Assembly: GCF_029760915.1 (NCBI RefSeq)
Contig: NZ_CP121685.1
Coordinates: forward strand, 1,772,001-1,836,000
Source: Olleya sp. YS
Lineage (GTDB): Bacteria; Bacteroidota; Bacteroidia; Flavobacteriales; Flavobacteriaceae
Length of the DNA stretch: 64,000 bases
Direction of reading: 5' to 3'
Shown in pieces: positions 16,539 to 34,363 of this stretch. The position numbers and the translations under genes were made by a program. The notes beneath the pieces are model-generated. The model was not told where the DNA came from, did no database searches, and was given only the letters and a program-made list of their open reading frames with translations. Within the stretch, counting starts at the first letter, position 1, and every line of letters starts with the position of its first letter.

Positions 16539-19500
16539 TCATTCTACAGTAATTCGTACACCTTCGCTATGACTACTAAATTCTGGAGCATACATACTTT
16601 GAATAGTAGTAATACCATTGCTCATATTACCAGCACTGTTGACACGTAAATCGTATTCAAATACATAAATACCTTTTGGTAAATAGTCAAAAAAGAAGTT
16701 TGTTGATGCATCTTTAGTTGCTTCGTAATAGCCAAGACCATCTTGATATTTATATTGACTTAACACGTTTATAGGCTCTAATCCTGCTGCACGCATATCT
16801 TTCATGTGGATAAATTCCATTGCTCTGTCGCATCTTAATTCGATACGTACTCTAATTAAATCGCCAACCTTTAGTTTGGTGTTTTTGGTTATTGCAGAGA
16901 TTTCTTCACCTGTATCAGTATTGGTTTTTAAGTATAATTGCTTCTTCAGTTTAAGTGGTGTTTCTGCAGAAGTGATTTTATCTAAATCCTCAAAATACTG
17001 CCAGTATAAAGCTGCCCAAGCAATACCTTCTCCTTTTTTGGTTAATGTAACATCTGCCATTTTTGGAGTGATGTCAGAACCTGACCAAGATGTTTTGTAG
17101 TATCCTGTTCCAGCTTCCACTTTGACATCTTCTAAAGTAGCAGGAGTTATTTTTTCACCACCTAAAACCACATCAACCATATCTGTCACACTCAACCAAT
17201 CACTACCTTGTAATAATAATGCATACACTGCTTCTGTAGTAGCTTTAGTGGTTTTCCATCGGTTAGTTTGTTTGTTTTTAAGTAACCAGATTTTTAGGTT
17301 GTCGATATCTTCAAGATTTTTCGTTTCACTCTGAAATCCTTTACCAACTTCTGCAAACGCTTCAATCATTAGTGCTTGAGTCTCGATTGATGCTTGATGC
17401 CAATAGTAAGAATTAGTGTTTTCTTTCCAATACATACCCAATTCTTCAGACGTAATACTATTTTCTTTTAAAGATTTTAATATTGCATTTGCAGTTGTAG
17501 TATCATTATTTCTACTCATAATTAAAGTCATCATACCTTTTGCATATAATGGACGTTTTAACCAATAGTTTCTAATTTGCGATAAGTAGTATTTGTGAAT
17601 TTCTTGTTGCTTTTTAGATTGTTTAAACTCCGGAAAAAAGCTTCGCATATATAAATAATGCAATTGCGTGTAACTTAGATGGTCTTTGGTGTAATCTACG
17701 TCATTAGTATACTTAGTTAAGTCGTTATATTCTTTTTCAAACTCATTATCTAAATAGTCTAGAGCGTCTACTACCATATCCATAATATCTCCATCTTTAT
17801 CACTAATTACGTTTAGTTGTTTTAGATGTCCAAAACCAGTAATAATGTGCTGTGTGATGTAACGGTTAGCTCTGTAATCTCCAAACCAAGACCATCCACC
17901 ATCAGACATTTGGTTATTTTTAAGTTTGCGTTTGGCACGATTTAATTCGCTAGTCATTTTATTTAAATCAAATAATAATGCGATTCGTTTTTTCTGTTCG
18001 GTTTCTGACTGCGCATCGCGTAACCAAGGAGTTTCCTGAATTAAAATGGACTTTAATTCTTCATTTTTTTCAAGATTGCTTAGTAGCGCATCACTGTTTT
18101 TCCATTGGTTAAACACCTCTTTAATGCGTGGATTACTATTAACAATATGACTGGCTAGACTATTAGCATAAAATCTGCTAAAGGTTTGCTCGTTACACTC
18201 ATATGGATATTCCATTAAATATGGTAACGCTTGTACTGCATACCAAGCTGGATTGCTGGTCATCTCTAAGGTTAATTTGTGGTGTTTTAAAGTTGAAGAA
18301 CTTGTAGTCTTTAACTTATCTAAAGTGAAGGTTCTAGTTTCGTTACTTTTAATCCACATTGGTAAGGTTTCTGTCACTAACATACGGTTAGTTAACACAG
18401 GTAATGCGTTTTGTTCTCCATCACTAAAATCGCCTGATTTTGCTAAAATTTTATACTGAATAGCTTGAACGTCATCTGGAATACTAATTTTCCAAGACAC
18501 TTCAGTATTGCCTTTAGCTTTAACCATAAAATTAGCAACTTGATCTTTGTATTTCTTTTTTAATTCATTAGAAGCAGTTGTTAATTTTAATAATCTAGAT
18601 GTTACATCTTTATTAGTTATTGGGTCAGTCAGAATTAATTTAGCTTGACCAGACATTATTTTGTCTGTAAGATTAGATATTTTAGTGCTAATTACAATAT
18701 CATCTCCTTGACGTAAAAAACGAGGCGTATTTGGCAACACCATGAGGTCTTTTTGAGTAACTGTTTGTAATGTACTTTTTGCATAATTACCTTGTTGGTT
18801 ATGCGCAAACAAATTAAGATTCCATCTGGTTAAAGCTTCTGGTGTTGTAAAATTAAAAGATACATTACCATTTTTATCAGTTGCTAATTGCGGAAAGAAA
18901 AAGGCTGTTTCTTGCAAATTGGTTCTAGCTTTGACTTGAGAGAAGTCTTCTTTTGCTCCCCTTTTAGTAGTGATTATTACGACTCCGTTTGCACCTTTTA
19001 CTCCATATGACGCAGTAGCTTCATCTCCTTTTAATACTGATATTTCTTGTATGTCGTCTGGATTAATTGATTTTATATCGCTAACTATGACTCCATCAAC
19101 AACATACAATGGATTTGATAAATCGCTAATTGAAGCAGCTCCTCTAATTACAACTTTTTTAGAATCGTTTTCTACTTGTACTCCTGCTACACTTCCTTGT
19201 AAAAAACTGGCTTCCATTGGAGCTTCCGCTTCTAAATCATCCATTACAACTGACTTAGATTCTATTCTCGATCTTTTTTTAGTTCCATAACCAGAAATAA
19301 CCACTTCATCTAAATTAGTATCTGGATTTAAACTAATATTAATAACATTATCAGCACCAACAGTTTTTTCAAGTGTTTCATAACCTACATAACTAAATTG
19401 TAATATATCTCCAGCACTAGCTTTTATTAAATAGTTACCATCAAAGTCTGTAGATGTTCCTTCTGAAGTGCCTTTAACCATTACATTTCCAGTCGGAAGA

Positions 19501-22500
19501 GGTAATCCGTTTTCATCAGTTACGGTTCCTGTTACAAAGCCTTTTTTAACGCTACCATCATAAGCGGTTCTTATTCTGTCTACTTTTAATCTGTTAATGT
19601 ATTGTTGATAGACCCAGCTATTATTATTCATAGTAAAGCCAAACCAATTAAACTGATCAAAGCTTTTTAGATTGTTAAAACTAGTGTAGTTGTAAGGTCT
19701 ATTAACTCTAAAGTAAGTGGTTCCAAAACTATTACCATCACCTCTTCTGTAAGACGCATAGTAACTACGTGGTGTAAAGTTGGAGTAGTTCCAGTTATGT
19801 GATTTAAATTCGTCCAAAGACGCATCATACATACTTGCTAAAAACTCGGATGCTATTTTTTCGCCTTTTGTGCCTTTAATTTTAAAGCTCCACGTTTCGT
19901 CTTTACCTGGTTGCAGTTTGTCCCTAAAGGTTAGGGTTTCAATCTCTAAATCGGTTTTAGGATATGGTACCTGTATAGTCATACTACCACCTTGATAACT
20001 ATTAAAAGCAGCTAAACTATAATGGATACCAAAACCTCCTAAATCACCTTCCTCAACAGGAATTGAGATTGTTTTTTTGTTTTCATTTAAAGTTATGACG
20101 TAGTTTTTTTCGATTTGGTAATCGCGTTCTACACTTACTGTCACTGTTAGGTTTTTTGCAGCAGTTGCTAAAGTTAAGACGACTTTATCTCCAACCTCGT
20201 AACTAGATTTGTCTGTAGTAATACTAAATAATTGTTGGTCTGCAAGTGTGTTGTCTTTATCAGAAAACAACATAGTTTTTGCTTTGTCTTTGACTTCTTG
20301 ACCAAATTTATCTGTAGTTTCTAACTCGATTATATACGCTCCAGACAACCATTTTTTGATGTTTTTTAAGTCGATGGTTTTGGATTGTTCTGTGTCAAAC
20401 GTTTTAGTTAATACCAAGTCGCCTTTTTCCCAATTTTCAGGATTGTCCTCATTAGTATAGGCATCATGAGGGAAGAAACTTTTAAAGTCGTTTTTAGTAA
20501 ACCCAGGATAATCTGGAGCAGCCCAAGGACGTTTACGTAATACAGTATTTGGAGCTTGCAGTTTATAAATATTGAGTGTTCCTTTTGCTGGTACAAATTG
20601 ACCATTTAGGTTTTGTGTGGTAATAGTTATTTGGTGGTCTTTTTCCGTCTTATCTATTACTGGTTTAATACCAATAGTAGCAGTTAACGCATGATACCCA
20701 ACTCTGACTATGGTTGAAGTACTTCTAGTTTCGCCATTAATGTCTGTGACATCTGCTGTGACCTCGTAACTAAAAATAGGTAAGCCAGATTTGTCTACGG
20801 TTTCATCAGGAATGGCTTTAAAAACAACCTCATAGTTTCCATCAGCATCAGTTGTGGTTTCGCCATGTGTGATTTCTTGAGAATCTACATTATAATAGCT
20901 TGGTCTGTACCATCTGTACCACACTGGATATTGTACATTTCTTACCACACGATACACCACTTTTGCATCTGTAATTTTACTGCCTGCAAACGCAATAGCT
21001 TCACCTTTTACAGTTACACTATCGTTAACTTTAAAGGTTTCTGTTATTGGATTAAAATTAGTTTCAAATTTTGGACGTTTATATTCCTCTACAGAAATAG
21101 ACGTATTTCCATACAAGTTATTGTTACTAATTCTTATGTTGAAGGTACCTGTCAGACCATCATTTGGTAACATAAACTCGCCAGAAACAGATCCAAAGTC
21201 GTTGGTTGTTAGGTTTAACGAACTTACTTTTTCGCCATTTGTGTTATATAAAACCACATTCACTTTTTTATTTGCAATAACTTCGGTTTTATTATTCTTA
21301 TTTTTTAAAGCAATTGCTTTAAAATAAACGGTTTGCGATGGTCTGTAAATACTACGATCGGTAAAAATAAACGCACGATAGTTAGTGTCGTTATCCTCAT
21401 GATTTCTGTAATAATTATTGATATAGTAATTACCAAAATACCCAATATCAGATTTGGTTTTAATGGTTAAAGCCACGTTATTACGCTTGTAACTTTTGTT
21501 TTTAGATATAGCGATAATACCTTTAGAATCCGTTGTTGTGGTAACAGTATTGATTATTTCGTTTCTATACATATAATCAATATCTACTTTAGCATTTGGT
21601 AGTGGTTGACCATTATTACGGTTAATAACTTGATAAAAGACTTGATTTTCATCCTGAAAATTAACAATAGCAATATTGGTAACTTGTGTTAAGGCAGTTG
21701 CAAAAAAGTTGTCGTCTAAATCGGTAGACTGTCCAACAATTAGATATAAACCATTATCCAAATTTGGCACTAAAACTTCGGTAGTATGTCGTTGGTAATC
21801 GTTGTCGTTTTTTAGAGAAGAAGTCCATGATTTTTCAACCTTTAGCTTGTCTATAAACGCTTTTTTCTCATCCTCTTTATAAATTTTCGTGAAGGCATCT
21901 CGTTGCTTTTTGGTAATTTTATGGGCTTCAAACTTAAGTTGTTCGACATTTTTGTAACCTATTAAAAAGCGCGATTGGGTGTTAATTGGTACAAACTGCT
22001 CAGCAGTTATGGTTAAACTAGGTTGTAAAATTTGCGATTGTAACGCAGTACATAAACCAGCACCTTTACTATCTGGAAAGTCTGTTATAACCTGTTTGCA
22101 CAAGTCTAAAGCGTCTTTTATTTTAAATCTTACCTCAGGATTAGTCTCTTTGTTATAAGCTTGACCTTGTGTATTATATAGCGTAGCAATTTTAAAATTG
22201 TACAACCCAGAGACTTCGTGTGTGTTGTGTTTTTCGGCTTCAGCCTGAAGTGCTTTTAAGTAAATATCTTCCTTATTTTCAAAAGTAGCATTGAAATACA
22301 CGTAGTCTAAACGCTCTGTATTGACTTCGGTTAAGGCATACGGTTCTTTATCTTTTAAATGAAATTGAATTAAACCCTGATAAACTTTCAAAGCTTGTAA
22401 TTGCAATGATGTCGAGTCTTTAGACGTGATGTTTATCTTAGAAAATGCTTCTGAAGCGGATAAATACTCAGGATTATCTATCAAAAATTTATAAGCAGGT

Positions 22501-23126
22501 TGCGTGATACTGTTTTCTGAGGTTTTATAAAATTCTAATGCATTATGACTTAAAAAATCGAATAACGTTGGTCTATACACTTCAGAATCTCTTCCTTTTG
22601 TAATGATCTCGTCAAACTGATTAATGGACGTTTGCTGTAACAACAATCCATTTTGCAACGAGTTGTCAAAATAAAGTTTAATCTCTGCAAATAAAGTTTC
22701 TAAATCCCAAGTTCTAAAATCTATGTTATCCGCTTTCTCTTCAGTTTTTGTACGGTTGTAAAATTTATATCTGTTTTGCTGAAAATATTGCCAATATAAG
22801 GTCGCCAACATATTTTCTAATACGTTTTTTGTTGGTGCTTTACTTGTAGTAATTTCAGCTTTAAAGTCGTTAATAATACTTAGTTGTGCATCTTCTTCAA
22901 GGAGTAATGCAAACTTGCTTTTAAATAATAAAACTTTAATACGTTGTTCGTTATTATCCTCTGCTATAGCTTTAGCCTCAATAGTTTTAACAACTTCCAA
23001 TGCACTTTTTGGTAAACCGTTAATTTCGTGCGTCTCAACGTTATTCCATAGTTTGGAATAGTTATTGGTTTGAGAGTAGGATGTTGCAAATAATAATATC
23101 ATTAAAAAAGTGGACAGATGCTTCAT
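16539..23126 (-). CDS. Giant alpha-2-macroglobulin with inserted carboxypeptidase-regulatory and TonB-plug domains
   Basis: A 2195-residue secreted protein with signal peptide MKHLSTFLMILLFATSYSQ. The start is the ATG at 23124-23126; seven further upstream codons would need a TTG start. The N-terminal ~590 residues are Bacteroidota-specific, then MG2 begins (FTDRSIYRPSQTVYFKA, near 594). The C-terminal half has A2M (FFPQLATDKNGNVSFNFTTPEALTRWNLNLFAHN) and the thioester site ECNEQT near residue 1645, so the CxEQ trap is intact. Between them, about 1195-1390, sit a regulatory beta-sandwich (GTVTDENGLPLPTGNV, GTSTDFDGNYLIKASAG, DEVVISGYGT) and a plug-like domain (LQGSVAGVQVENDSKKVVIRGAAS, NPLYVVDGVIV, GANGVVIITTKRG) as in SusC, but no barrel. 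Macroglobulins trap attacking proteases in the periplasm or at the surface. It is a single gene. Confidence 0.93.
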   Translation of the reverse strand: MKHLSTFLMILLFATSYSQTNNYSKLWNNVETHEINGLPKSALEVVKTIEAKAIAEDNNEQRIKVLLFKSKFALLLEEDAQLSIINDFKAEITTSKAPTKNVLENMLATLYWQYFQQNRYKFYNRTKTEEKADNIDFRTWDLETLFAEIKLYFDNSLQNGLLLQQTSINQFDEIITKGRDSEVYRPTLFDFLSHNALEFYKTSENSITQPAYKFLIDNPEYLSASEAFSKINITSKDSTSLQLQALKVYQGLIQFHLKDKEPYALTEVNTERLDYVYFNATFENKEDIYLKALQAEAEKHNTHEVSGLYNFKIATLYNTQGQAYNKETNPEVRFKIKDALDLCKQVITDFPDSKGAGLCTALQSQILQPSLTITAEQFVPINTQSRFLIGYKNVEQLKFEAHKITKKQRDAFTKIYKEDEKKAFIDKLKVEKSWTSSLKNDNDYQRHTTEVLVPNLDNGLYLIVGQSTDLDDNFFATALTQVTNIAIVNFQDENQVFYQVINRNNGQPLPNAKVDIDYMYRNEIINTVTTTTDSKGIIAISKNKSYKRNNVALTIKTKSDIGYFGNYYINNYYRNHEDNDTNYRAFIFTDRSIYRPSQTVYFKAIALKNKNNKTEVIANKKVNVVLYNTNGEKVSSLNLTTNDFGSVSGEFMLPNDGLTGTFNIRISNNNLYGNTSISVEEYKRPKFETNFNPITETFKVNDSVTVKGEAIAFAGSKITDAKVVYRVVRNVQYPVWYRWYRPSYYNVDSQEITHGETTTDADGNYEVVFKAIPDETVDKSGLPIFSYEVTADVTDINGETRSTSTIVRVGYHALTATIGIKPVIDKTEKDHQITITTQNLNGQFVPAKGTLNIYKLQAPNTVLRKRPWAAPDYPGFTKNDFKSFFPHDAYTNEDNPENWEKGDLVLTKTFDTEQSKTIDLKNIKKWLSGAYIIELETTDKFGQEVKDKAKTMLFSDKDNTLADQQLFSITTDKSSYEVGDKVVLTLATAAKNLTVTVSVERDYQIEKNYVITLNENKKTISIPVEEGDLGGFGIHYSLAAFNSYQGGSMTIQVPYPKTDLEIETLTFRDKLQPGKDETWSFKIKGTKGEKIASEFLASMYDASLDEFKSHNWNYSNFTPRSYYASYRRGDGNSFGTTYFRVNRPYNYTSFNNLKSFDQFNWFGFTMNNNSWVYQQYINRLKVDRIRTAYDGSVKKGFVTGTVTDENGLPLPTGNVMVKGTSEGTSTDFDGNYLIKASAGDILQFSYVGYETLEKTVGADNVINISLNPDTNLDEVVISGYGTKKRSRIESKSVVMDDLEAEAPMEASFLQGSVAGVQVENDSKKVVIRGAASISDLSNPLYVVDGVIVSDIKSINPDDIQEISVLKGDEATASYGVKGANGVVIITTKRGAKEDFSQVKARTNLQETAFFFPQLATDKNGNVSFNFTTPEALTRWNLNLFAHNQQGNYAKSTLQTVTQKDLMVLPNTPRFLRQGDDIVISTKISNLTDKIMSGQAKLILTDPITNKDVTSRLLKLTTASNELKKKYKDQVANFMVKAKGNTEVSWKISIPDDVQAIQYKILAKSGDFSDGEQNALPVLTNRMLVTETLPMWIKSNETRTFTLDKLKTTSSSTLKHHKLTLEMTSNPAWYAVQALPYLMEYPYECNEQTFSRFYANSLASHIVNSNPRIKEVFNQWKNSDALLSNLEKNEELKSILIQETPWLRDAQSETEQKKRIALLFDLNKMTSELNRAKRKLKNNQMSDGGWSWFGDYRANRYITQHIITGFGHLKQLNVISDKDGDIMDMVVDALDYLDNEFEKEYNDLTKYTNDVDYTKDHLSYTQLHYLYMRSFFPEFKQSKKQQEIHKYYLSQIRNYWLKRPLYAKGMMTLIMSRNNDTTTANAILKSLKENSITSEELGMYWKENTNSYYWHQASIETQALMIEAFAEVGKGFQSETKNLEDIDNLKIWLLKNKQTNRWKTTKATTEAVYALLLQGSDWLSVTDMVDVVLGGEKITPATLEDVKVEAGTGYYKTSWSGSDITPKMADVTLTKKGEGIAWAALYWQYFEDLDKITSAETPLKLKKQLYLKTNTDTGEEISAITKNTKLKVGDLIRVRIELRCDRAMEFIHMKDMRAAGLEPINVLSQYKYQDGLGYYEATKDASTNFFFDYLPKGIYVFEYDLRVNSAGNMSNGITTIQSMYAPEFSSHSEGVRITVE

Positions 23127-23275
23127 GTTATTAATTTTTTTAAGCAATATAGTTTAGTTTTAAAACCAACTAAAGCATAAATGCGTAAAGTAAACGTTTC
23201 AATGAGGGAAGCGTTGTGGATTTAAAGTTAAGTAAAATTTAACCATATAAATCAAAAACAATACCAAGAGAATAC

Positions 23276-23283
23276 TATTTTTG
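23276..23283 (+). promoter_or_regulatory. Candidate -7 box for the TPR gene
   Basis: TATTTTTG matches TAnnTTTG, 19 nt before the ATG at 23303. No clear -33 TTG. Confidence 0.38.
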
Positions 23284-23302
23284 TAAACCTTTATAATTCA
23301 AG

Positions 23303-24247
23303 ATGAAAACATTTTTATTAGTTTTAATTTTCCCAATTTTTGTTATAGCTCAAACATCTGTGCAAAAAGGAAAAACGTTTTTAGAGAGTAAACAATTTAG
23401 TAAAGCCGAAAAAGAATTAAAGTTGTTTGTAGACAATAATTCTGATAATTTGGAAGCTATAGAATTGTTGGGTGATGCTTATGGACACCAAAAAAAATGG
23501 GATGAAGCTGCTACAGCATATAAAAGGTTAGTTAAAGCAAAACCTAATAATGCTAATTACCATTATAAATTAGGTGGTGCTCTAGGGATGAAAGCCTTAT
23601 CAGTTAGTAAAATATCTGCTTTAGGCATTATTGGAGATGTAAAATCGTCATTTTTAAAAGCTGCAGAATTAGATCCAAATCATATTGAAGCACGTTGGGC
23701 TTTAGTAGAATTATATATGCAATTACCAGGTATTATTGGAGGTAGTAAAAAAACGTCCCTTAAATATGCTAACCAATTAGAAAACCTATCTAAAGTTGAT
23801 GGGTATTTAGCTAAAGGTTATATTTATGAATATGATGACGAACCAGAATTAGCAGAAGAGTACTATTTAAAAGCGATTAAAGTTGGTGGTTCTTTAACCT
23901 GTTATGAAAAGCTAACTGAATTGTATACCAAAGAAGACCAGCCAGACAAAGCAGTTGCTAATATGGAAGCTGCACAAATCAAGCATCAACGTAACAGTTT
24001 GCATTATCAAATAGGTAAGGTATGTGCAGATTATAACGTACAATTAGATAAAGGTGAGCGATGCTTGAAAGTATATATCCAAAACTACTCTGCTAAAGAT
24101 GGTGTTCCAAAAGCTTGGGCTAATTACCGCTTAGCACAAATCTATAAACACAAAAAAGATAGCACTAATGCGCTTAAGTATATTAACTTAGCCATAAGTG
24201 AGTTGCCAGATATTGAAGTGTTTAAAGACTTTAAGGACGATTTGTAG
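23303..24247 (+). CDS. Secreted tetratricopeptide-repeat protein
   Basis: A 314-residue protein with a signal peptide (MKTFLLVLIFPIFVIAQ) and TPR-type helical repeats. Examples are KGKTFLESKQFSKAEKELKLFVDNN (about 22-46), LLGDAYGHQKKWDEAATAYKRLVKAKPNN (about 55-83), SFLKAAELDPNHIEARWALVELYM and PKAWANYRLAQIYKHKKDSTNALKYINLAI. It probably acts as a periplasmic scaffold. It lies 68 bp upstream of mpl, whose separate -7 box suggests independent transcription. No specific partner is recognisable. Confidence 0.88.
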   Translation: MKTFLLVLIFPIFVIAQTSVQKGKTFLESKQFSKAEKELKLFVDNNSDNLEAIELLGDAYGHQKKWDEAATAYKRLVKAKPNNANYHYKLGGALGMKALSVSKISALGIIGDVKSSFLKAAELDPNHIEARWALVELYMQLPGIIGGSKKTSLKYANQLENLSKVDGYLAKGYIYEYDDEPELAEEYYLKAIKVGGSLTCYEKLTELYTKEDQPDKAVANMEAAQIKHQRNSLHYQIGKVCADYNVQLDKGERCLKVYIQNYSAKDGVPKAWANYRLAQIYKHKKDSTNALKYINLAISELPDIEVFKDFKDDL

Positions 24248-24285
24248 TATCTCACAAAAAGTGCTTTACTTATACTAGCAATTAT

Positions 24286-24293
24286 TATCTTTG
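24286..24293 (+). promoter_or_regulatory. Candidate -7 box for mpl
   Basis: TATCTTTG matches TAnnTTTG, 22 nt before the ATG at 24316; the -33 position is only TTTA. Confidence 0.4.
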
Positions 24294-24315
24294 AAGACTC
24301 TACAAATTACGGATA

Positions 24316-25671
24316 ATGAATGTACATTTTATAGCTATTGGTGGAAGTGCCATGCACAACTTAGCATTAGCATTACACAATAAAGGATATCAAGTTACAG
24401 GAAGCGACGATACCATTTTTGAACCCTCAAAATCGCGTTTACAAGCCAAGGGATTATTACCAGAAACATTTGGTTGGTTTCCAGAAAAAATAACCAATAC
24501 TTTAGATGCAATTGTACTTGGTATGCATGCTAAAGCAGATAACCCTGAGTTGTTAAAAGCGCAAGAATTAGGCTTAAAAATATATAGCTATCCGGAGTTT
24601 TTATACGAGCAATCCAAACACAAAACTAGAGTAGTTATTGGTGGAAGTCATGGTAAAACAACTATTACCTCTATGATATTACACGTGATGCATTATCATG
24701 ATAAGGATGTGGATTATATGGTTGGTGCACAATTAGAAGGCTTTGATGTTATGGTCAAACTTACTGAAGACAACGATTTTATTGTTTTAGAAGGTGATGA
24801 GTATCTAAGTAGTCCGATTGATAGACGACCAAAATTTCATTTATACAAACCTAACATAGCGTTGTTAAGTGGAATTGCTTGGGACCACATTAACGTCTTC
24901 CCAACCTATGAAAATTATGTGGAGCAGTTTAGCATTTTTGTAGATAGCATCGTAAAAGGTGGAAGTATAAATTATAACGAAGAAGATCCAGAAGTAAAAC
25001 GCGTAGTGGAAGCATCTGAAAATCCAATACGTAAAATAGCCTACCACACACCAGACTATACTGTAGAAGATGGCGAAACGCTTTTAGAAACACCAGAAGG
25101 ACCAATGCCAATAGAGGTTTTTGGAAAACATAATCTAAACAATTTAGCAGGAGCAAAATGGATTTGTCAACATATGGGAATTGATGAAGACGATTTTTAT
25201 GAAGCAATTGCAACCTTTAAAGGAGCCAGCAAACGTCTTGAGAAAATTGCCGAAAGCAAAACCAGTGTCGCCTATAAAGATTTTGCGCATTCGCCAAGTA
25301 AAGTAGAAGCCACTACAAAAGCAGTTAAAGAGCAATACGAAAACCGTACGTTAGTTGCTTGCTTAGAGTTACACACATACAGTAGCTTAAATGCAGAGTT
25401 TTTAAAAGAATATAAAGGCGCTTTAGATGCAGCAGATGTTGCAGTGGTATTTTATAGTCCACATGCAGTAGAAATTAAAAAATTGGAAGAAGTCACACAC
25501 GAGCAAATTGCGACTGCGTTTGAACGCGACGACTTAATTATTTATACCAATCCAGACGATTTTAAAAATTATTTATTCTCTCAAAATTTTGATAACAAAG
25601 CGTTATTGTTAATGAGTAGTGGCAATTATGGAGGATTGGATTTTGATGAGGTAAAGGGGTTGATTGGGTAA
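24316..25671 (+). CDS. mpl: UDP-N-acetylmuramate:tripeptide ligase, Mpl-type Mur ligase
   Basis: A 451-residue Mur ligase of the cell-wall recycling type, joining recycled L-Ala-D-Glu-mDAP peptide to UDP-MurNAc. Visible features are the N-terminal Rossmann MNVHFIAIGGSAMHNLALAL, the ATP P-loop GGSHGKTTITSM (about 109-120), LEGDEYLSSPIDRRPKFHLYKPNIALLSGIAWDHINVFPT, and the C-terminal YKDFAHSPSKVEATTKAV. Mpl rather than MurC is supported by the GMHAKADNPEL and DFAHSPSK segments. The last 109 coding bases are duplicated at 27212-27320 beyond an inserted gene, and the two tails differ at the end (KGLIG here, KEVIG there). Confidence 0.93.
   Translation: MNVHFIAIGGSAMHNLALALHNKGYQVTGSDDTIFEPSKSRLQAKGLLPETFGWFPEKITNTLDAIVLGMHAKADNPELLKAQELGLKIYSYPEFLYEQSKHKTRVVIGGSHGKTTITSMILHVMHYHDKDVDYMVGAQLEGFDVMVKLTEDNDFIVLEGDEYLSSPIDRRPKFHLYKPNIALLSGIAWDHINVFPTYENYVEQFSIFVDSIVKGGSINYNEEDPEVKRVVEASENPIRKIAYHTPDYTVEDGETLLETPEGPMPIEVFGKHNLNNLAGAKWICQHMGIDEDDFYEAIATFKGASKRLEKIAESKTSVAYKDFAHSPSKVEATTKAVKEQYENRTLVACLELHTYSSLNAEFLKEYKGALDAADVAVVFYSPHAVEIKKLEEVTHEQIATAFERDDLIIYTNPDDFKNYLFSQNFDNKALLLMSSGNYGGLDFDEVKGLIG
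25562..25670 (+). repeat. 109-bp direct repeat, copy 1 (3' end of mpl)
   Basis: Matches 27212-27320 with five substitutions and no gap. Three substitutions are at third codon positions and two change residues (KG-L to KE-V). Similarity starts abruptly at 25562 and stops at the stop codon. Confidence 0.95.
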
Positions 25672-25674
25672 CAC

Positions 25675-25740
25675 ATTCCTTTGAAAAAAGGAATCTTATT
25701 AAAAATAGTTCTTATTTTTTGGTTTCTGCTTTCACAGGAA
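25675..25740. repeat. REP-like palindrome pair after mpl
   Basis: First unit: 8-bp stem ATTCCTTT/AAAGGAAT with a GAAA loop (25675-25694), followed by CTTAT. Second, inverted unit: TTTCTG/CAGGAA (25723-25740) followed by TGACA. A related unit with the same stem length, GAAA loop and CTTAT tail is at 34257-34280. No T-run follows, so it is not a good terminator. Confidence 0.5.
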
Positions 25741-25802
25741 TGACAGTGCGGTTTTTGTAACGTTTTATTGAAAAAGGTTACCAATATATACAACTAACCT
25801 TT

Positions 25803-27215
25803 ATGAAATTTAAAAGACTGTTTTTTGATTCTTCAATAAATTATAAAGCTATAACCAAGGGACGTTTTGTTTTAGCTTTAATAATTGGTCTTGCTAGCGC
25901 TAATGTTTTATATTCTTTTTTTTATGTTTTAGATGATGTCTATAAAGTTTTAGAAATAGGTTTTACAGATTTTCCAACCTCAGTTAGTGAAAACGAAAAA
26001 TATAAATCAAACATACTTTATGCTGGAATATCTGTGATAATTGGTAATTCTGTTTTTATTAGTTTTTTGTTTTCAAGACCTTCAAATGCTTTTGATACAA
26101 GAAACCCAAAAAGAAGTAGATTACTAAATGACCAAGTTTTTTTAGGTGCGAATTTCACACATTGGTTTTTGAGGATTGGTGTCACATTTGGAGTGTTTTC
26201 ATCTTTTGGTTTTAATTTTAAAGGTGCAGTGTTCTATTATCCATTGATACTTTTAATACTCGTTGTTTTGTATTTAGACATATGGAAAACCTTATTGTTA
26301 CTCATAAAAAAGAATAAATACAAGATTTTAATATTTCATTTTTTAGGTACAGTTTTATTAGTATTGACTTTGGCCAAGTTTGATGTTACTGATTATAAGA
26401 AAGTAGAAGAAGTCGCGCTAAGAAATAATCCTGTAATTGATTTGCCACACTCTTTATATGATAGTAATTACAACATATATAATGGAATTACGATAAAATT
26501 AAAGTTGAACAGTTTTAACAAATTAGAACTATTTAGTGATGAGCATCAGAGATTAGACATAAATAAAATCCATGAATTTCTAAAACAAAGAAAGAGTTGG
26601 ATTAGAGAAGAAATGCTGCCAAGAATTCCTGTTAATATTATTGCAGATTCAAAATTAAAACTTCATTTTATTAAAGAGTTAGAAGCCAAACTATTGATTA
26701 ATAATTTATATAAAGTTAATTATATTACAACAGATATCAATAGAGTATTTAACAATTTGGAAATTAACAAAATTAGTTGTAAAATTTCTCCAGATGTATT
26801 AAAAATAGAAGAAGAAAAAACTGGAGTTAAATTTCCATTTCCTTCTTATTTACCACCATTACCAAAAGAAACTAGATTTAGTGATTCGTTACTAATTAAA
26901 GTAAATAAAAATGTAGAATTAAATGGATTAAGTGTTTCTAAAGAAGACTTAAAACAATCTTTTAAAAATAGAATAAATGCTAAAACATACTTTAGATATA
27001 TTTATGATGAAAACACTACATATCAAGATTATATAGATGTGTTGTCAGCACATTTTATAGCTGCTGAAGAACTAAGAAAAGAGGAGCAAATAGGTTTTAA
27101 AATTTATCCTTATTCATACAATGCTAAAGGTTTTGGAAGTAAAGCTTTTAATAAAGAGCGCTTGAGGTTATTAAATCTTTATCCAATAATAATTAGAGAA
27201 AATTATAAACGTTAA
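25803..27215 (+). CDS. Unknown membrane protein with possible tandem ExbD-like domains; lies inside the mpl duplication
   Basis: 470 residues. The N-terminal ~180 residues contain four likely membrane helices (FVLALIIGLASANVLYSFFY, ILYAGISVIIGNSVFISFLF, YYPLILLILVVLYLDIW, ILIFHFLGTVLLVLTLAKF). The rest is soluble and Lys/Glu-rich. Two stretches, about 205-300 and 350-445, weakly resemble the periplasmic fold of ExbD/TolR (pattern such as LLIKVNKNVELNGLSVSKEDLKQSF). No ExbB or TonB is adjacent. The stop codon overlaps the first bases of the second mpl repeat, and the gene is sandwiched by the repeat, so it was probably acquired. The function is unknown and the ExbD resemblance is my inference. 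Confidence 0.7.
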   Translation: MKFKRLFFDSSINYKAITKGRFVLALIIGLASANVLYSFFYVLDDVYKVLEIGFTDFPTSVSENEKYKSNILYAGISVIIGNSVFISFLFSRPSNAFDTRNPKRSRLLNDQVFLGANFTHWFLRIGVTFGVFSSFGFNFKGAVFYYPLILLILVVLYLDIWKTLLLLIKKNKYKILIFHFLGTVLLVLTLAKFDVTDYKKVEEVALRNNPVIDLPHSLYDSNYNIYNGITIKLKLNSFNKLELFSDEHQRLDINKIHEFLKQRKSWIREEMLPRIPVNIIADSKLKLHFIKELEAKLLINNLYKVNYITTDINRVFNNLEINKISCKISPDVLKIEEEKTGVKFPFPSYLPPLPKETRFSDSLLIKVNKNVELNGLSVSKEDLKQSFKNRINAKTYFRYIYDENTTYQDYIDVLSAHFIAAEELRKEEQIGFKIYPYSYNAKGFGSKAFNKERLRLLNLYPIIIRENYKR

Positions 27216-27321
27216 AAATTATTTATTCTCTCAAAACTTTGATAATAAAGCGTTATTGTTAATGAGTAGTGGCAATTATGGAGGATTGGATTTTGATGAG
27301 GTGAAGGAGGTGATTGGGTAG
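27211..27321 (+). pseudogene. Orphan copy of the mpl 3' end (repeat copy 2)
   Basis: Codons equivalent to the last 36 of mpl (KNYLFSQNFDNKALLLMSS onward, ending EVKEVIG and TAG) in the mpl frame but with no start or N-terminal part. Third-position differences from copy 1 suggest it is the tail of a diverged allele rather than a recent exact copy. It marks the right edge of the inserted segment. Confidence 0.92.
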
Positions 27322-27350
27322 TTTTTATTATTTAGAAAGTAAGAATACTA

Positions 27351-27983
27351 TCAAATTTTAAAGACAGCTCCTAAATTAAAACTCATGTAAAAGTTTTTGG
27401 CATTTCTTTGATCTGTAGTGTCTGTCAATCCAATCATATTATAATTATCAATAACAATAGTTAGGTTAGGGGAGATTTCAAACTTGTAGCCTATTCCAGA
27501 ATTTAGACCAAATTGAATAGGGTTACCTATATCTATTATATCTACATATCCATTACCATCATCATAATTACCTTCTATTTTGGTTAAAAACCCTAGACTT
27601 ACACCATAATTAAAATACCAATTTCTATTGGCTCCAAAATGGTAATTTACAATTAAAGGGATTGTTAAGTAATTTGATTTTTCTTTATAATCATCACTAA
27701 AAATAAAAAATTTGACCTTTTCAGTTCCCATGTTTTGATATAGTAGACCAGATTGTAAACTCCATCTATTATTTAAATAATAATTTCCGTAAACTCCTAT
27801 ATGAATTCCAGAGGATGGTGAAGAACCGAAAATAAAAGACCCAATGTTATAAGAGGCACTATAACCAATTATCGGAGTTAACTCAATGTTTCCTTTATCT
27901 CTTGTTTGTCCTATGCATAAAAAACTGCTTAGTAGTAGTGTAAGACATAATAGTTTTTTTATATTATTTTTTCTTCTTAACAT
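27351..27983 (-). CDS. Outer-membrane beta-barrel protein (PorT-like fold)
   Basis: A 210-residue protein starting MLRRKNNIKKLLCLTLLLSSFLCIGQ, a signal peptide; 12 codons further upstream would precede a second, poorer start. Alternating aromatic strands (WSLQSGLLYQNMGTEKVKFF, YLTIPLIVNYHF, WYFNYGVSLGFLTKIEG, IQFGLNSGIGYKFEI, FYMSFNLGAVFKI) and the C-terminal aromatic/hydrophobic end indicate an eight-stranded barrel as in outer-membrane beta-barrel-domain proteins. It is probably a small pore or surface protein. It is the last gene of a minus-strand run, 36 bp after the DUF1304 gene. Confidence 0.85.
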   Translation of the reverse strand: MLRRKNNIKKLLCLTLLLSSFLCIGQTRDKGNIELTPIIGYSASYNIGSFIFGSSPSSGIHIGVYGNYYLNNRWSLQSGLLYQNMGTEKVKFFIFSDDYKEKSNYLTIPLIVNYHFGANRNWYFNYGVSLGFLTKIEGNYDDGNGYVDIIDIGNPIQFGLNSGIGYKFEISPNLTIVIDNYNMIGLTDTTDQRNAKNFYMSFNLGAVFKI

Positions 27984-28019
27984 ATATGAAATTTTTATAG
28001 AGCCAAATGTGTAATACAA

Positions 28020-28382
28020 TTATTTAAGTAAGATTAACCCAATCCCAATCAAAGCAGGAACCGCTTGCACAAAAAATATCTTTTTTGATACGCTTAATGC
28101 ACCATATATACCAGCAACAGCAACACAACCTAAAAAGAATAACGCAATGTTGTTGTACCATTCAGGATTGCTTATAAAGTAAGTCCAAATCAATCCAGCA
28201 GCTAAAAATCCATTGTATAATCCTTGGTTGGCTGCCATACCTTTGGTTGGTTTAAATAGGTCTTTAGGTAAACTTTTAAAGGTTTTGCGTCCTATGGTTT
28301 CCCAAGCAAACATTTCGAAATATAGAAAATAGAGGTGAAGTGCTGCTACAATACCAATGATAATTTTTAATAGTATGTTCAT
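28020..28382 (-). CDS. DUF1304-family membrane protein
   Basis: 120 residues, four membrane helices. The family signature is HLYFLYFEMFAWETIGRKTF (about 16-35) followed by NQGLYNGFLAAGLIW and FLGCVAVAGIYGALSVSKKIFFVQAVPALIGIGLI. The function is unknown in the family. It lies 10 bp after the PaiB-like gene and is probably co-transcribed. Confidence 0.9.
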   Translation of the reverse strand: MNILLKIIIGIVAALHLYFLYFEMFAWETIGRKTFKSLPKDLFKPTKGMAANQGLYNGFLAAGLIWTYFISNPEWYNNIALFFLGCVAVAGIYGALSVSKKIFFVQAVPALIGIGLILLK

Positions 28383-28392
28383 GGTTTTCGTT

Positions 28393-28989
28393 TTAAAAGA
28401 TGTTATCTAAAAATTGTTTAATACTTTCTTGATTGGCTCGTAACAATTCATTTCTAGCGTGTTCTGTATCTCTTGGATGTTTGTCTTGAGATAGTTTAAA
28501 TTTGCCTTCCCAAGTGTTGATAGTAATTTCAAACATTTTGATATAGCTAAGGTTAGCAATTAATCTAGGGTTGTCAGGTTCTAAAATATACTTGTGGTCT
28601 GGTGCCTCTAAAAACTCGGTCATAGTAATAAGACTTTGTTTTAAAGCTTCATCGCTTTCAATTTTGGAAACTGTTCCTGTAAGGTGTACGCGAATATAAT
28701 TCCATGTTGGTAATTGTGTTGTGGTATACACACTAGGCGAGATGTAACATTGTGGACCATAAAAGATAATGGTAATATCGTTATTGTCTTGTAACAACTT
28801 GGTTTGCGGATTGTATATGTCTATGTGTCCTATTAATTTACCGTCAGATTCGCGATAAATTAATGGTAAATGTGTTACTAATGGTGCATTATCCTTTACA
28901 GAAATGATTGTGGCTAATGGATACGTTTTTATGACTTCAATAAGGTGAAGTTTATCATTGTCTTGATGATGTTTAGGAGGATATTTCAT
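28393..28989 (-). CDS. PaiB-like FMN-binding protein
   Basis: A 198-residue protein of the PaiB / FMN-binding negative transcriptional regulator family. Markers are MKYPPKHHQDN at the N-terminus, YPLATIISV, VTHLPLIYRESDGKLIGHI, IFYGPQCYISPSVY and the tail INTWEGKFKLSQDKHPRD. It has a flavin-reductase-like split barrel. A regulator role is known only from Bacillus; an enzymatic FMN function is equally possible here. It follows the DUF1569 gene by 6 bp. Confidence 0.9.
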   Translation of the reverse strand: MKYPPKHHQDNDKLHLIEVIKTYPLATIISVKDNAPLVTHLPLIYRESDGKLIGHIDIYNPQTKLLQDNNDITIIFYGPQCYISPSVYTTTQLPTWNYIRVHLTGTVSKIESDEALKQSLITMTEFLEAPDHKYILEPDNPRLIANLSYIKMFEITINTWEGKFKLSQDKHPRDTEHARNELLRANQESIKQFLDNIF

Positions 28990-28995
28990 AATAAA

Positions 28996-29439
28996 TTAAA
29001 CACCAAATTGTCTAAAATGATGATCTAAATGTTTGTATTGCATTTGTCCCCATTGCTCTTTTGTTAGTTTACCAAAAGACGGATGATTGTGCCAGTATTT
29101 TTTGTCTTTTTGTTGATGAAAATCATCTATCAAATTAACTAACACTTCTTTTTCTGAGTTGAAATCTTTGTCTTCGGTAACTCTAAACGCTTTAGCTGTA
29201 GGCATATTAGGCTTCCAAAGTTTGTCATTATACATAGATTTTTTAAATAGTAAATTAATTAACCAATTAGGTTTTAAACCATAATCCTCTTTTTGTAAAG
29301 CAACGTTAAGTGCCACTTGACAGTGGTGTGCCATTTGTCCAACTGTCATCTTTCCCCAAGTTGGTGAAGCATTTTCAGAAAGGTTTTCTATTCTGTTTTT
29401 AATTTCGTTATAAGCTTCGGTTTCTAATAAAGATTTCAT
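28996..29439 (-). CDS. DUF1569 (DinB-like fold) protein
   Basis: 147 residues with TWGKMTVGQMAHHCQVALNVAL (about 27-48), KSMYNDKLWKPNMPTAKAF and a conserved C-terminal HPSFGKLTKEQWGQMQYKHLDHHFRQFG. His residues at HHC, HPSFG and HLDHH fit a metal-binding DinB-like four-helix bundle. The function is unknown. It is the first gene of the minus-strand run ending at 27351, divergent from radC with 37 bp between the starts. Confidence 0.88.
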   Translation of the reverse strand: MKSLLETEAYNEIKNRIENLSENASPTWGKMTVGQMAHHCQVALNVALQKEDYGLKPNWLINLLFKKSMYNDKLWKPNMPTAKAFRVTEDKDFNSEKEVLVNLIDDFHQQKDKKYWHNHPSFGKLTKEQWGQMQYKHLDHHFRQFGV

Positions 29440-29476
29440 TTTAAAAAGTATTAAAAAAAATATGTAGATTTATAAA

Positions 29477-30175
29477 ATGTCTGATAAAAATACTTCATTT
29501 TCAATTAAAAATTGGTCACAAGACGATCAACCTCGTGAAAAGCTGTTATATAAAGGAAAAGCAGCCCTTAGTGATGCAGAATTAGTTGCTATTTTGATAG
29601 GTTCTGGTAACAGAGAAGAAAGTGCAGTGGCTTTATGCAAACGCATTTTAGCAACAACAGATAATAATTTAACCGAATTAGGCAAACTCACCATCAAGCA
29701 ATTAATGCAATTCAAAGGAATTGGTGAAGCCAAAGCCATAACTATAATTGCTGCTTTAGAATTAGGACGACGACGTAGAGGAGAAGAGGCACTACAAAAA
29801 AAGAAAATCACATCCAGTAAATCTGTTTTCGAGCTAATGCAACCTATTATTGGTGAGTTACCACATGAAGAATTTTGGATAATTTATTTAAATAATTCTA
29901 ATAAAGTGATTCATAAAAGTCAATTAAGTAAAGGTGGTATAACAGGTACTTTAGTAGATACTCGATTAGTACTAAAAACCGCTTTAGAAGTTGGAGCAGT
30001 AGGGCTAATTTTAGCACACAACCATCCGTCAGGAACTTTAAAACCTAGTCAATCCGACAAGGAAGTGACTACTAAATTAAAAGTTGCAGCACAAAGCTTA
30101 GACCTAAAAGTTTTAGACCATTTAATAGTTACAGAGCAAAGTTATTTTAGCTTTGCAGATGAAAATTTACTGTAA
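29477..30175 (+). CDS. radC: RadC-family JAB/MPN metalloprotease-fold protein
   Basis: 232 residues. An N-terminal helix-hairpin-helix region (LSDAELVAILIGSGNREESAVALCKRIL, FKGIGEAKAITIIAALELGRRR) is followed by the JAMM domain with HNHPSG near residue 182 and an upstream Glu in PHEEFW. Despite the name, a direct DNA-repair role is unproven for this family. Its TAA is directly followed by the ATG of the next gene, so the two are coupled. Confidence 0.95.
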   Translation: MSDKNTSFSIKNWSQDDQPREKLLYKGKAALSDAELVAILIGSGNREESAVALCKRILATTDNNLTELGKLTIKQLMQFKGIGEAKAITIIAALELGRRRRGEEALQKKKITSSKSVFELMQPIIGELPHEEFWIIYLNNSNKVIHKSQLSKGGITGTLVDTRLVLKTALEVGAVGLILAHNHPSGTLKPSQSDKEVTTKLKVAAQSLDLKVLDHLIVTEQSYFSFADENLL

Positions 30176-31474
30176 ATGTTATTGGTTTATACACATAAAA
30201 TCACACCCAGAGTCAAATATGTTTTTAAACAAATTTGCACCAGAATTTTGGGCATTCCAGTCCATTTTACAACGACTATTGAAGAATTTATAGCACACGA
30301 CAGTTTAAAGATGTCTTACACTAGACAACCTTTAAGTAGTGAGATTTTTGTACGTAGTAACGAGCTACTTTTTGACCAAGGTCTGTCAGATTTAGATATT
30401 AATGTGTTACCTTGGGAAAACACCAAATGCTTTTTTACTACTGGTGAAAAAAGTGTAATACCGTTTGATATTTTTGCAGCAACGTTTTATTTAATTAGTC
30501 GTTATGAAGAATACTTACCTCACGTAAAAGATGAGTATGGGCGCTTTACAGCTCAAGAAAGCTTAGCGTTTAAAAATCAATTTTTAGATCAACCAGTAGT
30601 AGATATTTGGGCTTACAAGTTTAAAGCTATTTTAGAAAAGAATTATCCAAATTTTAAGTTTCCTAAACAAAAATATAATGTCAAACCTGTGATTGATGTA
30701 CCAGTCGCTTACGAGTACAAATTAAAGGGAATTATGCGTACGTTTGGTGGGACTACTAAAGATATATTTACATTTAAATTTAGACGATTATACGAGAGAT
30801 ATTCTGTGTTATCTGGATTTAAACGCGACCCATATGACACGTATAAGTATATAATAAACAAACAAAAGTCCTCAAAATTTAAGTTTGTGTTTTTCTTTTC
30901 GGTTGGCGATTTTTCGACTTATGATAAAAATATCAACCCTCAAAAAGAAAAGTTTGTGTCGCTTATAAAACACATAGCAGACTATTGTCAAGTTGGTATC
31001 AAAACATCGTTTTTCGCCTTATCAAATTTAAGTCTATTAAAAGAGGAGAAGCGTAGGATGGAGGCTATAATTAACAATTCTATTATAGGTTCCAGACAAT
31101 CGTTTTCTAAGGTCAATTTGCCAGAATCGTATCGTCATTTAGTCGAGTTAGAAATACCAGAAGATTATACTATGGGTTATGTTAATCATTTAGGTTTTAG
31201 GGCAGGTACATGTACACCTTTTTTGTTCTATGATTTAGATTTTGAAACACAAACACCTTTAAAAATTGTACCTTACCATGCTTTAGATTTTGCATTTTTA
31301 AAATACCAATCGCTACTAGATAAAGAGGAAGTTTTAAAAAAAATAATTAAAAACATCAAAAATGTAAACGGAACTTTTGTTCCAGTCTTTCATAATTATA
31401 CTTTTAGCAAACAAGAGCGTTGGAAACATTTTAAAACCTTATTTAACATAATTTTAGATGCCAAAACTAAATAA
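30176..31474 (+). CDS. Polysaccharide deacetylase-like protein (DUF7033 type)
   Basis: 432 residues. The N-terminal part (PFDIFAATFYLISRYEEYLPHVKDEYGRF, near 95-123) is the conserved region of this Bacteroidota family. The C-terminal half is a degenerate NodB-type barrel (VFFFSVGDFSTYD, VGIKTSFFALSNLSLL, GYVNHLGFRAGTCTPFLFYDLDFE, FVPVFHNY). The canonical H-x3-H metal pair is not evident, so activity is uncertain. The ATG directly abuts the radC stop and the 3' end overlaps the HAD gene by 17 bp, giving a tight operon. Confidence 0.85.
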   Translation: MLLVYTHKITPRVKYVFKQICTRILGIPVHFTTTIEEFIAHDSLKMSYTRQPLSSEIFVRSNELLFDQGLSDLDINVLPWENTKCFFTTGEKSVIPFDIFAATFYLISRYEEYLPHVKDEYGRFTAQESLAFKNQFLDQPVVDIWAYKFKAILEKNYPNFKFPKQKYNVKPVIDVPVAYEYKLKGIMRTFGGTTKDIFTFKFRRLYERYSVLSGFKRDPYDTYKYIINKQKSSKFKFVFFFSVGDFSTYDKNINPQKEKFVSLIKHIADYCQVGIKTSFFALSNLSLLKEEKRRMEAIINNSIIGSRQSFSKVNLPESYRHLVELEIPEDYTMGYVNHLGFRAGTCTPFLFYDLDFETQTPLKIVPYHALDFAFLKYQSLLDKEEVLKKIIKNIKNVNGTFVPVFHNYTFSKQERWKHFKTLFNIILDAKTK

Positions 31475-32150
31475 AATAGAGCATGTTTTTTTCGACTTAG
31501 ATCACACGCTATGGGATTTTGATAAAAACTCAGCCTTAACGTTTGAGTTTATTTTTGAAAAGCACAAAGTGAATACTAGTTTAAATGATTTTTTAAGTTA
31601 TTATGAACCTATAAACTTAAAATATTGGAAGTTATATAGAGATGAGAAGGTCACTAAAGATAATTTAAGATATAATAGACTTAAGGAAACCTTTGATGCT
31701 TTACAATTTCAGGTAGATGACGAATTAATTTATCAACTTTCTGAAGATTATATAAGTTATTTAACTAGCTTTAATCATGTGTATGATGGCACCTTTGAAA
31801 TATTGGAGTATTTAAAAACCAAATATACATTGCACATAATTACCAATGGGTTTAGAGAGGCACAAAGTAATAAATTAAAAGTTTCAAAATTAGATCATTA
31901 TTTTGAAACAGTAACCAGTGCAGAATCTGCTGGTGTTAAAAAACCTAATCCTAAAATATTTAATTTTGCATTAGATATTGCCAAAGCTAAAACACAGAAT
32001 AGTGTTATGATAGGTGATAATTACGAAGCAGATATTTTAGGCGCTTTAAACATAGGTTTGGATGCAATTTGTTTTAATTATCATAATGCAGAATTACAAC
32101 CAGAAATTAAAGTCATTAATCACTTATTAGACATTAAAAAATATTTATAA
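31458..32150 (+). CDS. HAD hydrolase, YjjG-like nucleotidase
   Basis: 230 residues of the HAD superfamily. Motif I is FFDLDHTLWDFDKNS (near 11-25), motif II is HIITNGF (near 117), and KKPNPKIF plus MIGDNYEADILGALNIG are motifs III/IV. The D-x-D-x-T-L-W-D-F form is typical of YjjG-type noncanonical pyrimidine nucleotidases that clean the nucleotide pool. It overlaps the upstream gene and is followed 2 bp later by a secreted protein gene. Confidence 0.9.
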   Translation: MPKLNKIEHVFFDLDHTLWDFDKNSALTFEFIFEKHKVNTSLNDFLSYYEPINLKYWKLYRDEKVTKDNLRYNRLKETFDALQFQVDDELIYQLSEDYISYLTSFNHVYDGTFEILEYLKTKYTLHIITNGFREAQSNKLKVSKLDHYFETVTSAESAGVKKPNPKIFNFALDIAKAKTQNSVMIGDNYEADILGALNIGLDAICFNYHNAELQPEIKVINHLLDIKKYL

Positions 32151-32152
32151 TT

Positions 32153-34239: not shown

Positions 34240-34256
34240 ATTGTAAAATTAAATTA

Positions 34257-34283
34257 ATTCTTGTGAAAACAGGAATCTTATCA
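34257..34283. repeat. REP-like palindrome upstream of the rhomboid gene
   Basis: Stem ATTCTTGT/ACAGGAAT (one G-U pair) with a GAAA loop, then CTTATC. It is the same design as the unit at 25675-25694 about 8.6 kb away. It sits between the divergent rarA and rhomboid genes. Confidence 0.45.
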
Positions 34284-34363
34284 AACCTAGTTATTAACTA
34301 TCCTAATGATGACAATATTTCACCTATATAATTTTGGTTAACTATTTGCTATATTTAGATTTT

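Follow-up and report, generated by a model that had tools for sequence, protein, structure and literature searches.

Background

Integrative elements that enter at the 3′ ends of genes rebuild their target and repeat its 3′ end, and they do so with an integrase and at a fixed crossover point. Here, we describe a repeat of similar outward form in a 64,000-nucleotide stretch of the Olleya sp. YS genome (contig NZ_CP121685.1, positions 1,772,001 to 1,836,000 of the forward strand; hereafter, the window), in which the 3′ end of mpl, a Mur ligase gene, recurs downstream of an acquired gene encoding a 470-residue protein. The rebuilt target and the repeated 3′ end are common to both situations, while the fixed point and the integrase were not found at mpl. 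The scar is real and recurrent, and its mechanism is known in kind; on balance, we regard it as probably the trace of an integrase-free insertion at a core-gene 3′ end.

According to two reports, foreign DNA can be inserted in the absence of an integrase through one homologous anchor and one illegitimate joint, a process termed homology-facilitated illegitimate recombination (HFIR), in Acinetobacter baylyi, Streptococcus pneumoniae, Pseudomonas stutzeri, and in Escherichia coli conjugation (PMC3240628, PMC2884548). Those events took place in the laboratory, whereas ours are read from natural genomes, with tails stranded at core genes. A study of the type VI secretion system effector arrays of Vibrio cholerae (PMC5361080) describes modules that are likewise anchored upstream and displace native 3′ ends and genes downstream, and proposes HFIR; there, however, the effector gene itself is displaced, while at mpl a conserved metabolic anchor stays intact and the cargo is unrelated. 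Transfer hotspots that lack mobile elements (PMC5635113) resemble mpl in having variable genes beside a core gene and no integrase, but have homology on both sides and exchange at flanking core genes, whereas at mpl one side appears illegitimate and leaves a readable scar. In the open-licence literature searched, we found no report on mpl as an integration site in Flavobacteria, nor on illegitimate recombination with horizontal transfer in Flavobacteriaceae, and none that describes such a scar at the two core genes considered here. Gene entry without mobile elements is hard to reconstruct afterwards. A stranded native tail records the insertion, the position of the illegitimate joint and, where the two tails differ, the donor lineage.

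The repeated mpl 3′ end and its gene

The two copies of the mpl 3′ end (25562-25670 and 27212-27320) are each 109 nt long, are identical at 104 positions (95%), and lie 1650 bp apart (BLAST E ~3e-47). Third codon positions account for three of the five differences, and a first and a second position for one each. A single open reading frame (ORF) lies between the copies, and its TAA stop (27213-27215) is within the first bases of copy 2. An earlier note on this DNA had described the duplication with its five mismatches, mostly third-position, and the gene between the copies; repeat search and ORF coordinates reproduced both. It had also named a larger mpl paralogue holding the downstream copy as a possible objection. 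This was ruled out, because a 110-bp tail query had only two matches (E ≤ 0.001) in the 3.0-Mb window genome, namely the two window copies. The absence of an integrase, likewise claimed there, was borne out for 14 of the 18 ORFs of at least 80 aa at 18000-35000, none of which had an integrase among its Pfam matches; the other four overlap larger ORFs. The name mpl is itself approximate: by NCBIfam, the product is a MurC/Mpl-like Mur ligase that reaches neither of the curated cut-offs, with 231.5 of the 335.1 bits required for murC and 169.5 of the 388.7 required for mpl.

Distribution of the gene and of second tails

Three of ten genomes of the genus carry the gene (the window genome, G000, together with G006 and G007), and the same three have two near-full tails; in G008 (75% complete) the second tail match covers just 23 bp. 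Seven genomes, one of which is 75% complete, are without the gene. Gene and both tails are thus not confined to the window, nor are they shared by all close relatives; their presence in all of these is what the earlier note would have taken as the mark of an old and fixed insertion. The G006 and G007 genes are 37% identical to that of the window, and their mpl genes are ~94% identical to the window mpl.

Searches with the window protein yielded matches at E ≤ 0.001 in 30 of 397 genomes, 14 of them long and strong (E ≤ 4.3e-56) and the others partial or weak. In all 14, the gene is located at most 7.4 kb downstream of mpl and on the same strand, and in ten its start is at most 180 bp from the mpl stop, with which it coincides in G165. 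A pattern-based scan of named genomes, some of which are the same as in the protein search, returned 31 loci that we take to be from Flavobacteriaceae, judging by their titles. These had mpl upstream within the 7-kb flank in 27 cases; L131 is a contig of G106 with mpl 7.3 kb away, and no mpl was found within the flanks read at L109, L112 and L115. The region was also fetched for 59 of the 68 genomes in the genus of Winogradskyella eximia, where the 7-11 kb read contain the whole gene in 14 genomes and fragments of it in one.

Two tail matches were counted in 5 of the 397 genomes (G000, G006, G077, G215 and G385), in 2 of the 68 in the W. eximia genus (G448 and G454), and in 1 of 8 in the genus of Bizionia arctica. 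G215 was left out because its second tail, counted in the scan, could not be located in its locus, and G454 because its second match is on another contig in a full-length frame. By BLAST, orphan tails followed a homologous gene in B. arctica (137 bp, 85%), W. eximia (52 bp, 83%) and Winogradskyella echinorum (54 bp, 83%), and more decayed ones were recognized by eye in W. sediminis, W. psychrotolerans, W. thalassocola and W. flava. Other, unrelated cargo between mpl tails, which the earlier note had suggested looking for, was found in four genomes. In G077, the tails enclose a 625-aa protein (with an Ig-like Pfam match under the cut-off), and behind the decayed tail come a spacer and a gene homologous to that of the window. 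The enclosed sequence comprises a minus-strand ORF of 189 aa, barrel-like by eye, in G385, two minus-strand ORFs, S41-peptidase-like and MarR-like by eye, in G448, and a 361-aa ORF in G470. At least 1.1 kb separates the tails at all two-tail loci that were located.

As a control, mpl tails were compared with the 6 kb downstream of their own gene. At E ≤ 1e-5, matches were present on the plus strand in 10 of 100 distinct loci, a value that is no frequency since the loci were partly chosen for the gene or for two tails; there were none on the minus strand, none with the reversed tail, and none with 300 internal mpl segments. Relaxing the threshold to E ≤ 0.001 gave 12 plus-strand, 3 minus-strand, 2 reversed-tail and 1 internal matches. 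Weak tail matches in L187, L199, L205 and L222 were seen and not counted. A sequence-only model of the mpl tail produced second matches (E ≤ 0.01) in many of the 397 genomes, most of them at unlisted places, and its counts were not used.

Right boundaries and empty sites

The orphan tail starts 110 bp before the mpl end in the window genome, 107 bp in G006, 152 bp in B. arctica and 138 bp (exact part) in G385; the decayed copies of G448 (84 bp), G470 (64 bp) and W. eximia (64-67 bp) provide lower bounds. We found no constant attachment core of the kind expected of a site-specific element; the tail starts vary by lineage. Their positions (about 64-67, 84, 107-110, 138 and 152 bp) correspond to joints without long homology at varying places, as in HFIR, and the well-kept tails by themselves rule out a single fixed crossover point common to all lineages. 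With a right boundary that is not constant from one lineage to another, the likeness to site-specific integration at gene ends, remarked upon in the earlier note, is superficial.

We compared 11 stretches following the orphan tail (in G077, following the gene) with the post-mpl stretches of 92 loci, and five matched that of another locus at E ≤ 1e-6. The best matches were those of G006 and G007 with G003 and of W. eximia with G413. G003 represents an empty site for both G006 and G007: the sequence that directly follows its only mpl tail is found beyond their orphan tails, over 695 bp and at 90% and 87% identity, respectively. For W. eximia, the corresponding match was to G413, a genome without the gene (95.7% over 690 bp after tail 2). 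The insertion of the gene, as proposed in the earlier note, is therefore borne out by the empty sites of other carriers.

Origins of the two tails

The two tails of W. eximia appear to be of different origin. Its mpl ends in KNLIK, like that of three other carriers of the same gene type (W. thalassocola, W. psychrotolerans and W. sediminis), and in G413 and three further genomes without the gene mpl ends in KALF. Over its length, W. eximia mpl agrees with G413 at 80 of the 129 sites that distinguish G413 from W. thalassocola, but at the last five of these it agrees with W. thalassocola. Tail 2 aligns to the G413 mpl through the last sense codon, while its alignment to the W. eximia mpl stops 15 bp short of the end. 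Unless G413 arose by excision, these alignments make tail 2 the apparently native copy and tail 1 the apparently foreign one.

In the window, tail 1 ends in KGLIG, as does mpl in G001, the nearest relative without the gene (102/107 identical), and tail 2 is the more diverged copy (96/107 versus G001). The idea that a segment arrived with its own mpl tail and orphaned the native one thus finds support in W. eximia and not in the window, where tail 1 is like G001 and neither tail looks foreign. The related expectation that strains without the gene have a single tail with the KEVIG end of window tail 2 failed, as that end is in none of the other nine genomes of the genus.

The G006 and G007 tails group by genome: at their 14 variable sites, five group in this manner, none groups by copy, and nine are singletons. 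This suggests that the tails of a genome interact (concerted evolution), and separate acquisitions could produce the same pattern. Gene conversion can explain the result for the window tails.

History of the gene

Phylogenetic reconstruction of the cargo placed G000 with G077 (100/100) and rejected a clade of G000, G006 and G007 (approximately unbiased test, p-AU 8.5e-7), while in the mpl tree G000 was placed with G006 and G007 (96/81). In the mpl tree, Gaetbulibacter 4G1 is the sister of Flaviramulus N17 (100/100), a relationship that was rejected by the cargo tree (p-AU 7.3e-5). Within the window protein, residues 1-30 match G006 at 22/30 and G077 at 14/29 positions, and most of the remainder is nearer to G077 (permutation p 0.017, post hoc), hinting at a possible exchange of alleles inside the unit. 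The spacer ahead of the gene is somewhat nearer to G006, with identities of 50/76 versus G006 and 47/88 versus G077 over the first 100 alignment columns; the next 100 columns, which include the gene start, have 56/90 and 49/87, respectively.

A proposed route of insertion and its alternatives

We propose that the scar has a homologous left joint and an illegitimate right joint, and that exchange, conversion and decay came later. Chromosomal DNA from a related flavobacterium, carrying an mpl end and the gene behind it, would be taken up and would form the left joint by homologous recombination within mpl. The right joint would be illegitimate and would fall inside the recipient's own mpl 3′ end, such that mpl is rebuilt with the incoming tail, the new gene stands behind it with its own promoter, and the native tail of the recipient is stranded downstream. 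Thereafter, the tails might undergo mutual conversion or decay, or recombination between them might remove the gene cleanly, and the unit, once formed, could move to relatives by ordinary homologous recombination, with mpl and the orphan tail as its arms. It is from the comparison of genomes that we infer HFIR as the molecular route, the route of DNA uptake, the clean deletion, and an origin of the window copy by this process rather than by inheritance or receipt of a ready-made unit. In favour of the proposal are the empty sites, the differing right boundaries, the apparently different origins of the W. eximia tails, the unrelated cargo between tails in G077, G385, G448 and G470, the rejection by the cargo tree of a clade of the three carriers of the genus, and a second locus of similar layout at a methylmalonyl-CoA mutase gene. 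Natural competence is reported for Riemerella of the same family.

Several observations weigh against this proposal. The sequence after tail 2 of the window matched none of the 92 post-mpl stretches, so that no empty site was found for the window itself, and none was found among these loci for B. arctica, W. echinorum, G448, G470 or G077. Neither tail of the window looks foreign, and Bizionia relatives do not decide which tail of B. arctica is native. Tail relics were detected by BLAST in only 3 of the 27 named loci with mpl upstream and are absent beside most carriers. In the case of W. eximia, G413 could be the excision product of a W. eximia-like parent, L199 has no gene and yet its mpl ends in KNLIK, and the KNLIK agreement with W. 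thalassocola is at the protein level only: 4 of the last 21 bases differ, hence W. thalassocola was not the direct donor. The boundary is the same in G000 and G006/G007 although their genes share 37% identity; some copies, therefore, may not stem from separate events. A grouping of G000 with G077 is not rejected by the mpl tree (p-AU 0.289), and the conflict between cargo and mpl trees therefore rests on the genus assignment and the 96/81 support. Finally, the comEC and dprA families are present, but also occur in control genomes (10 and 11 of 14, respectively, with E. coli included), and are not diagnostic.

The shared boundary, and the fact that mpl is rebuilt in every case seen, would also suit a trans-acting tyrosine recombinase that inserts circles carrying the mpl 3′ end in their attachment site, in the way that elements enter at tRNA genes and at the ends of other genes. 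So would the lipoprotein-like gene of G077, which ends at the same TTTTAAAA motif that forms the boundary in the window's genus, a coincidence that we cannot explain otherwise than by chance or an inherited boundary. Such an element is nonetheless very unlikely given boundaries elsewhere at about 65, 138 and 152 bp from the mpl end, the lack of an integrase in the 14 window ORFs scanned, a similar scar at a methylmalonyl-CoA mutase gene (see below), and the failure to find a homologue of the gene in the plasmid, phage and viral-contig collections, one search of which reaches close relatives only. A duplication in cis, of the mpl tail or of tail and gene in tandem with one gene then lost, would involve no incoming tail, and of the sequences compared, none is nearer to window tail 2 than tail 1 of the same locus (101/107). 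Similar tails are, however, explicable by conversion; moreover, the W. eximia tails appear to have different origins, 5 of the 11 cases compared have, beyond tail 2, a sequence like that found after mpl at other loci, and the located two-tail loci have their tails at least 1.1 kb apart. We consider this duplication unlikely.

For the window copy only, a further account is compatible with the proposed insertion, as its later phase: either a ready-made mpl-gene-tail unit moved in by double homologous recombination, or a unit ancestral to the genus was mostly lost by tail-tail deletion and its gene alleles were swapped. We judge this account plausible, if just short of probable. It would accommodate the common boundary of G000 and G006/G007, the G006-like first 30 residues of a protein that is for the most part G077-like, and the mpl of the empty G003, which is as close to G006 (93.5%) as that of the carrier G007 (93.0%), but it leaves founding events with new boundaries unexplained and requires several losses in view of the seven genomes of the genus without the gene.

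A second orphan tail on the same chromosome

Extending the scan to 1.2 Mb plus the window (982 and 54 ORFs called, respectively), which is 40% of the window's chromosome, revealed one further strong orphan tail, that of the methylmalonyl-CoA mutase gene (C1:251998-254121). The mutase gene is followed by an AraC-type regulator, an Rce1-like protease, and then a copy of its last ~196 bp together with ~147 bp past the stop (L245:11998-16564, equivalent to C1:251998-256564 of the window genome). The copy aligns over 348 columns at 83%, with 150 bp of the gene end at 98%, and is frameshifted by eye. Unlike at mpl, the likeness at the mutase continues beyond the stop codon. In this first scan, no head or middle segment had a nearby same-strand copy outside genes, and a single weak tail copy upstream of its gene, 53 bp long at 79% identity (E 4e-6) and located in the window outside any gene, was treated as background. 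A more sensitive scan of 947 ORFs at E ≤ 1e-4 returned 7 tail copies downstream, 8 tail copies upstream, 9 head copies upstream, 7 middle copies downstream, and no downstream minus-strand tail copies, indicating that weak tail matches are no commoner than controls. The mpl and mutase matches stood well apart from all others, with E-values of 2.5e-47 and 2.7e-72, respectively, compared with 2.2e-16 for the match ranked after them.

If the proposed insertion is correct, one-sided recombination would be countable by a simple scan for a core-gene 3′ end that is repeated after one or two foreign genes. More tentatively, units bracketed by tails may be self-made portable cassettes, in which, following a single illegitimate founding event, the orphan tail acts as the right homology arm, permitting entry into any relative with a bare core gene, whatever lies downstream, and clean exit. 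In that case, orphan core-gene tails would mark a general, integrase-free spread of genes in Flavobacteriaceae that would be readable genome-wide, as here at mpl and the mutase on one chromosome.

The acquired gene

An AlphaFold2 model of the product (14 sequences, pLDDT 75) begins with five long helices and has a domain of mixed structure at its C terminus. Foldseek ranked periplasmic domains of ExbD first to fourth (probability 0.99-1.00, target TM 0.57-0.69), with E-values of 0.019-0.22 and none ≤ 0.001, and the Pfam ExbD/TolR family (PF02472) scored 15.4 bits, under its gathering score of 25.4. The gene encodes a membrane protein, probably with an ExbD-like domain. NCBIfam models assigned it no family, and PADLOC defence models yielded 0 families at E ≤ 0.01. 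A strict GTAAC-N17-TAC motif was present in 25 of 35 upstream regions versus 4 of 1508 background stretches of 300 bp, a count in which the motif had been chosen by eye from some of the same regions; we presume that it resembles a promoter of the ECF-sigma type. From these features, we infer that the product is an envelope protein and that its gene has its own promoter. In addition, the spacers ahead of the gene in the window, L085 (4820-4960) and L082 contain, by eye, a short inverted motif similar to TTCCTGC..GTAGGAA, which varies by copy.

Copies of the gene are broken or partial in L086 (G215), L185 (G436) and L104 (G015, near a contig end), which suggests that it is dispensable. At L109 and L115 (Hanstruepera marina and Bizionia algoritergicola), the gene family is located away from mpl, between lipoprotein-like and ABC-ATPase-like ORFs as recognized by eye. 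A viral-contig scan and tblastn searches against plasmids and phages, one of which reaches close relatives only, returned neither a relative of the gene nor, accordingly, a vehicle for it.

Features of the locus

The coordinates of the locus are compiled in Table 1.

Table 1. Annotated features of the mpl locus, in window positions
Feature	Position	Strand	Basis
mpl, Mur ligase of the MurC/Mpl kind, anchor core gene	24316..25671	+	Pfam Mur_ligase, Mur_ligase_M, Mur_ligase_C; NCBIfam murC/mpl below cut-offs
Tail 1, functional mpl 3′ end, repeated downstream	25562..25671	+	Repeat and alignment of relatives
Spacer, mpl stop to acquired gene; somewhat nearer G006 than G077	25672..25802	+	Alignment
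Promoter-like motif GTAAC-N17-TAC ahead of acquired gene	25757..25781	+	Motif count in upstream regions
Acquired gene, 470-aa membrane protein	25803..27215	+	Five long N-terminal helices and probable ExbD/TolR-like domain
Tail 2, orphan mpl 3′ end; supplies stop codon of acquired gene	27212..27320	+	Repeat search
Outer-membrane beta-barrel protein, flank 3′ of tail 2	27351..28019	-	PF13568, E 3.2e-15

Upstream of mpl, the window also encodes a 2202-aa alpha-2-macroglobulin-like protein (16539-23147) that has a carboxypeptidase-regulatory domain and, in the middle of the protein, a TonB-receptor plug domain.

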